Assembly: GCA_026982695.1 (NCBI GenBank)
Contig: JALSGS010000034.1
Coordinates: 1-64,000 of the forward strand
From: Saprospiraceae bacterium
GTDB taxonomy: Bacteria; Bacteroidota; Bacteroidia; Chitinophagales; Saprospiraceae
Length of the DNA stretch: 64,000 nucleotides
Reading direction: 5' to 3'
In this document: positions 1 to 2,863 of the stretch, in pieces
Layout: each line of letters starts with the position of its first letter
How positions within the stretch are numbered: position 1 is the stretch's first letter
Made by a program: the position numbers and the translations under genes
The notes under the pieces: generated by a model
The model's input: only the letters and a program-made list of their open reading frames with translations
Database searches by the model: none
Told to the model about the DNA's origin: nothing

Positions 1-907
1 TAGCCAACTGATCTTTCCAGTATTGCTGCCACTTAGTTAACACATGTTTTTCCAATAGCTGGTGTGCACCAATAATGATCAATGGAGCTGCTGCCTCAAA
101 GCCCACGCGTCCCTTTATGCCGATAATCGTATCGCCCACATGCATGCCACGCCCCACTGCATACGGAGCTGCTAAAGATTCAAGTTGCCGAATAGCAGCC
201 ACTGGCTCGAGTACACGATCGTCAATACCACGTAGCTCACCCGATTCGAACTTCAGGGTCACCACACGGGGTGCTGTGGCCTCAGGTTGCGTTGGCCATG
301 CTTCCGATGGCAAAGGTTTATGAGAAGTAAGCGTCTCAGCGCCACCCACGGAAGTACCCCAAAGCCCCTTGTTGATGGAATACTGCGCTTTTTCCCATGC
401 GATGGATATGCCGTGCTTGCGCAAATAGCTGACTTCCTCCTGTCGGCTGAGTTTTAAGTCTCGAATAGGCGTGATAATCTCGAGCTCAGGAGCCAACACT
501 TGAAATGCCAGGTCAAAACGCACCTGATCATTACCAGCGCCCGTACTTCCGTGAGCTACTGCCTGAGCACCAATTTTTTGTGCAAATTTTGCCGTCTGAA
601 TAGCTTGAAACAAACGCTCAGCGCTCACACTTAACGGATAAGTATGGTTGCGCAATACATTGCCAAAAATCAAGTACTTGATACACTGATCGTAATATGA
701 TTGCACCGCATCGATCAATGTCCAAGAAGCAGCCCCTAACATGTGTGCACGCTGTTCTAAAGCAGCTCGCTCTGCCGCATCGAACCCTCCTGTATCTACT
801 GTAACGGCATGTACTTCCATGCCCATATCTTCACTCAAATACTTGATGCAAAAGGAAGTATCGAGCCCACCACTATAGGCTAATACCACTTTTTTTTGGT
901 CACTCAT
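1..907 (-). CDS. argG: Argininosuccinate synthase (C-terminus outside window)
   Basis: Joins citrulline and aspartate with ATP to make argininosuccinate, the penultimate step of arginine synthesis, in the cytosol. The first 302 codons are visible. The protein begins MSDQKKVVLAYSGGLDTSFC, with the PP-loop SGGLDTS that defines the N-type ATP pyrophosphatase fold, followed by the family segments HGSTGAGNDQVRFD and PIRDLKLSRQEE. The ATG at 907 lies inside the end of the upstream acetyltransferase gene (ATGAGTGA, 8-base overlap), so translation is probably coupled. The stop codon lies left of the window. Regulation is probably through the leader peptide and hairpin upstream of the operon. Confidence 0.96.
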   Translation of the reverse strand, partial: MSDQKKVVLAYSGGLDTSFCIKYLSEDMGMEVHAVTVDTGGFDAAERAALEQRAHMLGAASWTLIDAVQSYYDQCIKYLIFGNVLRNHTYPLSVSAERLFQAIQTAKFAQKIGAQAVAHGSTGAGNDQVRFDLAFQVLAPELEIITPIRDLKLSRQEEVSYLRKHGISIAWEKAQYSINKGLWGTSVGGAETLTSHKPLPSEAWPTQPEATAPRVVTLKFESGELRGIDDRVLEPVAAIRQLESLAAPYAVGRGMHVGDTIIGIKGRVGFEAAAPLIIIGAHQLLEKHVLTKWQQYWKDQLA

Positions 908-1496
908 GGTTTGTGTTTGTAGCGATGAATGAAGAAGTAGATGTACCCTTTTTTGCCACAGCTTCTTCCTCAGCAGAAGGCGCCAACATGCCTGTACACA
1001 AGCACATGCGCCGATTGTTGCGTTGCAAGATGTCGTAATTGGGGCAGCTACGACAGCCATCCCAAAAAGCTTCATCCTGCGTCAACTCAGAAAAGGTCAC
1101 AGGTTTGTAGCCCAGCTCAGTATTGATCTTCATTACAGCCAAACTGGTCGTAATGCCAAAAACACGGGCCGAAGGATATAAGCTTCGGGCTAAGTGAAAT
1201 GCTTTCTTCTTAATAGCTTTGGCTAACCCTTGCTTGCGATACTGCGGCGCTACTACCAGCCCTGAGTTAGCCACATAACGACCGTGTTCCCACGTTTCGA
1301 TATAGCAAAAGCCGGCCAGTTCTGCGCCATCAAGTGCAATGACAGCCTTACCCGAAATGATCTTCTCCGCAATGTACTGGGGTGCACGCCGGGCAATACC
1401 TGTACCACGTGCCCGTGCCGAATCCTCAATGAGCTGGCAAATAGCCTCAGCATAATGAGCATGTGCAGGTCCTGCTACTTCTATGCGAATAGACAT
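900..1496 (-). CDS. GNAT N-acetyltransferase, ArgA-like (arginine pathway)
   Basis: About 198 residues with a single GNAT acetyltransferase domain: an acetyl-CoA loop YRKQGLAKAIKK, SGLVVAPQYR just before it, and a C-terminal NYDILQRNNRRMCLCTGML segment. Direct placement before argG with an 8-base overlap implies a role as the glutamate N-acetyltransferase that begins arginine synthesis, as seen in other Bacteroidota arginine operons. That role is inferred from context, not from catalytic residues. Two starts are possible. ATG 1514 lies in a predicted hairpin; ATG 1496 (MSIRIEV) begins exactly where the domain begins and was chosen. Several cysteines near the end (CRSCPNYD, CLC) are typical of the family but of unknown use. 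Confidence 0.85.
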   Translation of the reverse strand: MSIRIEVAGPAHAHYAEAICQLIEDSARARGTGIARRAPQYIAEKIISGKAVIALDGAELAGFCYIETWEHGRYVANSGLVVAPQYRKQGLAKAIKKKAFHLARSLYPSARVFGITTSLAVMKINTELGYKPVTFSELTQDEAFWDGCRSCPNYDILQRNNRRMCLCTGMLAPSAEEEAVAKKGTSTSSFIATNTNHE

Positions 1497-1586: not shown

Positions 1587-1613
1587 AAAGAAAGATGGCA
1601 GCTACCAGCTACC
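1587..1613 (-). terminator. Candidate attenuator terminator in the arg operon leader
   Basis: On the minus strand GGTAGCT pairs with AGCTGCC across a three-base loop (seven pairs, one G-U), followed at once by ATCTTTCTTTG. It sits 19 bases after the stop codon of the Arg-rich leader peptide and about 90 bases before the first structural gene. The same six bases as the 3' arm (GCTGCC) occur earlier in the leader, within codons 6 to 8, and could pair with the 5' arm. This is a possible but unproven antiterminator. Confidence 0.55.
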
Positions 1614-1631
1614 CTAGGTGGGTGATATGAC

Positions 1632-1715
1632 TCATACGCGCCCCGAAGGGCGGCGACGAAAACGGCGCTGCATGTGCTGTGCAGCACATACAGGCAGCGT
1701 GACGATATGTCGCAT
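1632..1715 (-). CDS. Arginine-rich leader peptide (27 codons) of the arg operon
   Basis: A short frame in the transcribed leader of the acetyltransferase-argG operon. It starts at ATG 1715, about 10 bases after the likely transcription start, and stops at TGA 1634-1632. It encodes 27 residues, of which 7 are Arg. Five of the seven are in the run RRFRRR (CGC CGT TTT CGT CGC CGC), encoded immediately ahead of a terminator-like hairpin. An upstream in-frame ATG at 1727 would add MLQA but lies at the transcription start. A leader peptide rich in the end-product amino acid, between promoter and terminator, is the classical layout of ribosome-mediated attenuation. Its translation is inferred. Confidence 0.72.
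   Translation of the reverse strand: MRHIVTLPVCAAQHMQRRFRRRPSGRV
1672..1689 (-). promoter_or_regulatory. Perfect inverted repeat inside the leader-peptide frame
   Basis: ATGTGCTG and CAGCACAT form an eight-base perfect inverted repeat with a two-base centre. As RNA it would be a strong hairpin just before the arginine codons; as DNA it could be an operator. A second small stem with a UUCG loop (CGCCC/GGGCG) lies within the Arg codons and after them. It does not resemble the known E. coli ARG box. Confidence 0.4.
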
Positions 1716-1731
1716 TGCTTGAAGCATGGGG

Positions 1732-1762
1732 CAAAGATAGACATCGCTCTGTCTTAAGCAAA
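1732..1762 (-). promoter_or_regulatory. Bacteroidota-type promoter of the arg leader and operon
   Basis: On the minus strand TTTG (1762-1759) and TATCTTTG (1739-1732) are separated by 19 bases, an exact match to the Bacteroidota housekeeping pattern TTTG-N19-TAnnTTTG. Transcription would begin near 1725 and give a leader of about 210 to 230 bases. Confidence 0.75.
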
Positions 1763-1821: not shown

Positions 1822-2649
1822 CTATGGCAACCATGATGATATAAATTGTTGCCAAGCAGCGGCATGTGTCAGCCCATTGTAGCCACATGATGTAGCTAAC
1901 TGCCGTATTCGATCGATTCGATCTTTGGAAATTGGCCCATGTGTGCGTACCCACTCGAGAGACTGCCCTTCATCTTGTTGCATCTTTTCCAGCAAGCATG
2001 CCAATGCTTGCGCATCATAGCGAAAAGGGCACAACACCTCCACGCATACCGAGTCTGCCTCCACGACGGCATTCGCTGGCCAGCTAATGGAAGCTGCTGC
2101 CTGTGCTGCCTCATCAAGCCCTTCTACCGGATTGCCCAGTACAATATCGCCTAACAAGAATCCCCCCGTAACCGCCCGCAGTTGTTCAAAAGCTACTTCC
2201 CTATCGGCATAGTATAACTCATGGGCGATGAGTGCCAATGCTTGGCTTTCATCTTCTATATAACGCAACAAGCCCGTAGTGATAAACAAATGCCCACCAG
2301 GCAATATAAAGGCATGAGCTAAAGAATCGTCGTAAATGAGATCCACACTCCATTCGTAATAGTCTCGATATTGGTATTGTGGCGTACGCACCACCATCAA
2401 TAACAATTGCTCCATGTAGGCATAGGCCTCCTCGTACTGGCTGCGACTCAGCATGGGAAATTCAGCTGGCATACGCCGTATCTGCTGACGAAAAGCGGAA
2501 CCTATCAAGCGCATCTGTTCGGGCGTAGCTACTTCCAAGTTTTGACTGACCACCACCCCCTTTTCTGGCTGGCACGACAATAGCGTCCATATCATCCCCA
2601 GCCCATACAGCATACCCCGCACGTGCAATTGTATCTCAAAACCACCCAT
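1822..2649 (-). CDS. Lipoprotein of M48 metalloprotease type with altered zinc motif
   Basis: About 275 residues. The start at 2649 gives a signal peptide ending in WTLLSC, a lipobox, so the protein is probably anchored in an envelope membrane. The middle resembles M48 (Zn-dependent, Oma1/BepA type) peptidases: LPGGHLFITTGLL, then IAHELYYADREVAF where the family has HExxH, then VVEADSVCVEVL carrying the usual third-ligand Glu, and a RYDAQAL segment. The second zinc-binding His is Tyr (HELYY), so proteolysis is doubtful; a chaperone-like or decayed role is possible. An upstream start at 2778 is open but gives a cysteine-rich N-terminus unlike a signal peptide. Confidence 0.75.
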   Translation of the reverse strand: MGGFEIQLHVRGMLYGLGMIWTLLSCQPEKGVVVSQNLEVATPEQMRLIGSAFRQQIRRMPAEFPMLSRSQYEEAYAYMEQLLLMVVRTPQYQYRDYYEWSVDLIYDDSLAHAFILPGGHLFITTGLLRYIEDESQALALIAHELYYADREVAFEQLRAVTGGFLLGDIVLGNPVEGLDEAAQAAASISWPANAVVEADSVCVEVLCPFRYDAQALACLLEKMQQDEGQSLEWVRTHGPISKDRIDRIRQLATSCGYNGLTHAAAWQQFISSWLP

Positions 2650-2731
2650 GTATTCATCCGTTAAAAGTGAAGGAGGGCATAAGTTCTTGCCACTAAAATC
2701 ATTCCGTTTTCGCCCCTTGTAAGTGCACAAC

Positions 2732-2764
2732 AAAAAAGCCCGCCCCTTACATACAGGACAGGCT
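2732..2764 (-). terminator. Rho-independent terminator after the EF-G paralogue
   Basis: On the minus strand AGCCTGTCC pairs with GGGGCGGGCT (some G-U pairs) around an eight- to ten-base loop and is followed by six T. It lies about 100 bases after the stop codon at 2864. Confidence 0.7.
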
Positions 2765-2863
2765 CGCCACCTTGGCACTGACGCTGCATTTCTCAGTGTA
2801 CTTCACAAGGAAGTCTTGCGAAAACACATGTGGCCAAAACTTTTCGCTTTTAGCTCATCAGGT

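Follow-up and report, generated by a model that had tools for sequence, protein, structure and literature searches.

The his, trp, and leu attenuators of Proteobacteria consist of a short frame rich in codons for the operon's own amino acid, a hairpin at these regulatory codons, and, between it and the first gene, hairpins that exclude one another. In the his and trp leaders, the polymerase undergoes a hairpin-stabilized pause. The leader described here shares this general layout but would sense arginine, has its start codon at or beside the expected start point of the promoter, contains five alternating C/G segments where those attenuators have four, carries a conserved CATAT box, mostly lacks a U-tract, and is found in Bacteroidota.

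Arginine codons have been implicated in leader-mediated control elsewhere. In the Salmonella speF leader, consecutive Arg codons in the upstream frame orf34 alter RNA folding and expression with the arginine level (PMC6386406). That system differs in that it has only two Arg codons, targets an ornithine decarboxylase rather than standing before an arginine biosynthesis operon, and involves Rho, unmasking of the ribosome-binding site (RBS), and RNase G (PMC6386406). The short frame rbfL of Staphylococcus aureus senses arginine shortage through rare Arg codons, but it overlaps and blocks the rbf RBS (PMC13009471), whereas about 136 nt separate the end of the arg leader frame from its gene. Within Bacteroidota, clues to leader-peptide attenuation before amino acid operons have been described in Flavobacterium psychrophilum (PMC9723704), and Bacteroides thetaiotaomicron has long 5' UTRs with sORFs that resemble leader peptides (PMC7366714), in both cases with no link to arginine or argG in the main text. 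Our search of the published literature, which covered the main texts of these two papers (PMC9723704, PMC7366714), found no arginine attenuator in Bacteroidota. ArgR likewise exerts arginine-dependent control of arg operons, but it is a DNA-binding protein and was absent from the leader-bearing genomes tested.

The leader locus and its promoter

The window, i.e. the whole 64-kb stretch of DNA that was analyzed, carries the leader of an arginine operon on its minus strand, between a Peptidase M48 family gene on the 5' side (1822-2778, minus strand, directly upstream) and a GNAT gene on the 3' side. The features are as follows.

1732..1762, minus strand: Bacteroidota-type promoter TTTG-N19-TATCTTTG, the sole exact match in the 64-kb window (0.35 expected)
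1632..1727, minus strand: predicted near-leaderless 31-codon leader frame MLQAMRHIVTLPVCAAQHMQRRFRRRPSGRV; the sister species G001 has MTCTKRHIVHHPVAPAARTRRRFRRRPSGRA at an equal distance from the promoter
1705..1710, minus strand: 5' ACATAT motif, which relatives keep 15-18 nt past the leader AUG
1650..1667, minus strand: putative regulatory Arg codons CGC CGT (TTT) CGT CGC CGC; relatives show Arg-only enrichment and clade-specific codon choice
1639..1652, minus strand: hairpin P1, CGCCC-UUCG-GGGCG, where the Arg run ends; stem kept in G001
1622..1629, minus strand: CATATNAC box, here CATATCAC, 9 nt past the base of P1 (spacing read from the sequences)
1611..1623, minus strand: hairpin 3:4, ACCC-N5-GGGU, which excludes hairpin 4:5
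1587..1613, minus strand: hairpin 4:5, GGUAGCU-GGU-AGCUGCC (stem 1613-1597), with the tail ATCTTTCTTT (1596-1587), terminator-like
900..1496, minus strand: GNAT-family acetyltransferase, ArgA-like (PF00583), first gene of the operon; adjoins argG in relatives
1..907, minus strand: argG, argininosuccinate synthase (PF00764, PF20979, NCBIfam argG), truncated at the contig end

The original prediction had described an exact Bacteroidota promoter, a seven-pair hairpin with a T-rich tail, and an ArgA-like gene and argG following the leader, and all of these were recovered, the two genes by their family matches (GNAT start 1496, argG start 907). The window opens inside argG, so the remaining arg operon lies outside it; a longer operon in one relative contains GNAT, argG, argC, argD, acetylornithine carbamoyltransferase (argF'), and argB. 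The leader frame, which ends at 1632, does not overlap the GNAT gene, unlike an RBS-occluding frame of the rbfL type.

The frame (MRHIV..RRFRRRPSGRV) holds seven Arg codons, five of them within six codons at 1667-1650, and those of the window and the sister leader are common ones (CGC, CGT). This Arg content had been assigned to a frame of 27 codons, and here the start needs revision. Most likely, the leader begins at the upstream ATG at 1727 and comprises 31 codons, as G001 retains that ATG only, which in both sequences lies 4 nt past the -7 element of the promoter.

An exact TAnnTTTG was located at most 45 nt before the frame start in 75 of the 119 Arg leaders obtained by pooling both sets of relatives, mostly at a distance of 4-8 nt, compared with 5/119 in a control window. 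Because the -7 box is so close to the frame start, we infer that the leader messages of the family are leaderless or nearly so. Shine-Dalgarno sequences are mostly ignored by Bacteroidota ribosomes. At the sequence level, the upstream placement of the promoter implies one transcript for the frame and the operon.

Arginine specificity and the absence of ArgR

Among named loci, those nearest to the lineage of the window are from Saprospiraceae. Regions upstream of GNAT came from three sources: whole genomes, named species from different parts of the phylum, and a sample spanning the phylum. The first sets (whole genomes and named species) gave 161 non-redundant regions, in whose short ATG frames Arg was counted per eight codons. 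Conservation of the frame and its Arg run, on which the original prediction depended, was strong: at least five Arg in eight codons occurred in 68/161 regions, whereas dinucleotide shuffles averaged 0.40 and never exceeded 2, an excess that, as in all shuffle comparisons here, is inflated by the relatedness of the sequences. With at least four Arg in eight codons, the numbers were 98/161 and 4.05. No amino acid other than Arg was enriched over shuffles in the short frames of the 161 regions. Typical frames are MAMTELNIISFPFTCRRRLARRRP and MNELTLHITFTPYRRRFVRRP, and in Balneolaceae MQIKSRNRISTSFLRRIPRRR. Christiangramia echinicola DSM 19838, Gracilimonas mengyeensis DSM 21985, and Neolewinella lacunae are carriers available in culture.

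Codon choice in the leaders departs from that of the operon they precede. CGG makes up 79% of the Arg codons in Balneolaceae leaders versus 6% in the same operon, CGC 64% versus 4% in Flavobacteriaceae, and AGG 27% versus 2% in Lewinella-type loci. This use of rare codons is consistent with a leader that senses particular charged tRNA-Arg species, and the GC-rich stem may contribute to it.

A covariance model of the leader searched over 298 genomes returned 47 matches, all of which (47/47) lie before the operon's GNAT gene. One match that appeared to be a new target, G035:C293, is the same locus again, in a second copy that sits where a contig ends. Ten leader loci gave no Rfam match at the gathering score, and the window produced implausible sub-threshold matches alone. 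The arginine specificity of the leader is well supported by the sequence comparisons.

ArgR was absent in 61/61 nearest relatives by a search whose positive controls (E. coli, B. subtilis, and a Bacteroides) all gave a match, and none was found in the leader-bearing named genomes searched. Among 60 sampled GNAT-bearing genomes, ArgR was clear in one, where it lies next to GNAT and no convincing leader is seen, with weak helix-turn-helix matches in two others. At locus L279 (genome G542), argR directly adjoins GNAT and the leader is missing. The genomes that combine a clear ArgR with no convincing leader are two Alistipes, one Paludibacteraceae, and one f31 genome. Some lineages, for example genus g147 of the phylum sample (L263-L271), have GNAT with neither an Arg leader nor ArgR.

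Hairpins and the CATAT box

The UUCG-loop stem originally proposed near the Arg codons is present at 1652-1639 and conserved in the sister species. Across the family, 77 of the 119 leaders have a P1 stem of at least 5 bp over the end of the Arg run, where shuffles give 28.8, and the stems differ by clade (CGCCC/GGGCG, AGACCC/GGGTCT, CGCAC/GTGCG). The main class of relatives has its UAG stop codon inside the P1 loop. The window and its sister have a UUCG loop, and their frame continues four codons further. The perfect inverted repeat noted around the Arg codons does exist at about 1690-1665 but is not conserved, and we rejected it as a functional stem since it is absent in the sister species.

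Downstream of P1, hairpins 3:4 and 4:5 overlap in the window, and both are also found in the sister species. Two mutually exclusive hairpins occur downstream in 21 of 40 sequences (200 shuffles averaged 0.28 and reached 3 at most), and stems at the 4:5 place were found in 68/119 leaders versus 15.4 in shuffles, the stems themselves differing between sequences. An earlier copy of GCTGCC, suggested as a competitor for the 3' arm, did not survive comparison, as it is not kept in relatives. Folding energy was modestly lower than in shuffles at the end of the frame (mean z -0.64) and downstream of it (-0.99), compared with -0.15 in a control stretch.

The CATAT core of the box, at 1629-1625, is kept in the sister species, and in relatives the CATATNAY box stays 9 nt after P1 even when the stop codon is displaced. 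This constant distance resembles that of a hairpin-stabilized pause. The 5' ACATAT falls in two different reading frames among relatives, which makes it a nucleotide motif not driven by the peptide. Polymerase pausing is a possible role for ACATAT and CATAT. Pairing of the P1 3' arm and spacer with the CATAT box was judged by eye to be inconsistent across sequences. A promoter-ATG-ACATAT pattern was found at 17 sites in the whole genome (reversed-pattern control, 5), of which only the arg site is a leader, and the idea of a general pause motif was dropped.

Constrained equilibrium folding was carried out with a ribosome at the first Arg codon, the last Arg codon, or the stop. Hairpin 4:5 had a mean probability of 0.68 without a ribosome and 0.80-0.86 with one, and no clear change of fold was seen at any of the three positions, and a simple static switch was set aside. 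As 4:5 is favored at every ribosome position, static pairing does not explain the switch. If the pause is indeed hairpin-stabilized, timing rather than equilibrium pairing would act as the switch.

The loop of the second hairpin, UACGU or UAUGU, recurs on dissimilar stems in loci L065, L084, L166, L178, L059, L091, and L273.

The attenuation model and its alternatives

An amino acid attenuation layout working with arginine, as originally suggested, is supported by the relatives, by its placement before the arg operon only, and by the absence of ArgR. The leader is probably a phylum-wide, near-leaderless, ribosome-mediated arginine attenuator. The polymerase would start a few bases before the leader AUG, or at it, so that a ribosome could load immediately and read a short peptide in which the Arg codons are concentrated in the last part. 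When charged tRNA-Arg is low, the ribosome would stall on these codons, and its location would set whether P1 forms. Polymerase timing, of which a P1-stabilized pause at the CATAT box is perhaps a part, would together with the competing hairpins 3:4 and 4:5 decide whether transcription enters GNAT-argG-argC-argD-argF'-argB. Arginine shortage would turn the operon on, and plenty would lead to an early end of transcription. Three observations count against this model: folding favors 4:5 wherever the ribosome stands, a U-rich tail follows 8 of 28 of these hairpins, and lineages such as g147 possess neither the leader nor ArgR.

Sensing of charged tRNA-Arg by a translated leader could also be coupled to an output other than intrinsic termination. 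Stalling would then govern termination by Rho or decay of the mRNA, as in the speF leader, for which Salmonella orf34, acting via Rho and RNase G, is a precedent (PMC6386406). The U-tract after 4:5 is missing in most relatives (a U-rich tail follows 8 of 28 hairpins), and canonical terminator-like sites show no excess in the genome stretch (19 versus 16.9 expected), both of which favor such an output. However, the window's own 4:5 hairpin bears a T-rich tail, and the mutually exclusive hairpins are conserved as in classical attenuators, at fixed positions and with varying sequence, which makes Rho or decay an unlikely route.

Many leaders end in RRP with the stop codon directly after it, inside the P1 loop, as might be expected if this end of the nascent peptide halted the ribosome and the exit tunnel sensed free arginine or another signal. 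Such an arrest is quite improbable, since the ends vary (RRPSGRV, RRPLGA, RIPRRR, RRRI, RRRIRE) while Arg richness is constant, and the clade-rare codons suit decoding better than peptide identity. The leader peptides are alike in Arg richness with no single common sequence, which speaks against an arginine attenuator peptide of the fungal type.

That selection acted on a GC-rich RNA structure or motif and produced the Arg run only incidentally, in a frame that is never read, is hardly credible despite the CGCC-rich repeats that build the P1 arm and the conservation of ACATAT and CATAT regardless of frame, because the enrichment is limited to Arg and lies in frames that open with ATG at the promoter, the family draws on all six Arg codons (AGA and AGG among them), and Arg persists while the P1 stems change across clades.

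If ribosome-mediated attenuation holds, Bacteroidota lacking ArgR gain a way to sense arginine, arginine joins the amino acids read by this mechanism at a biosynthetic operon, and the leader lets transcription-translation coupling in Bacteroidota be studied in a natural setting. It is quite possible, though we propose it tentatively, that most ArgR-less Bacteroidota use a distinct class of attenuator in the stead of ArgR, characterized by a near-leaderless Arg leader, a CATAT pause, a five-segment hairpin ladder, clade-specific rare codons, and tandem leaders in Flavobacteriaceae.

Two Arg-rich short frames stand in tandem upstream of GNAT, at distances of about 300 and 100 nt, in L254, L093, L097, L085, L072, L253, and L260, whose hosts are Flavobacteriaceae or a family with the same frames. 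One example is MKNLKNKIRCSVPGLPARNRRRRF with MRRIFPRRP. In several of these loci, a strongly conserved hairpin with the loop UUAGGUGAGUCCG and a covarying stem comes after the tandem frames.
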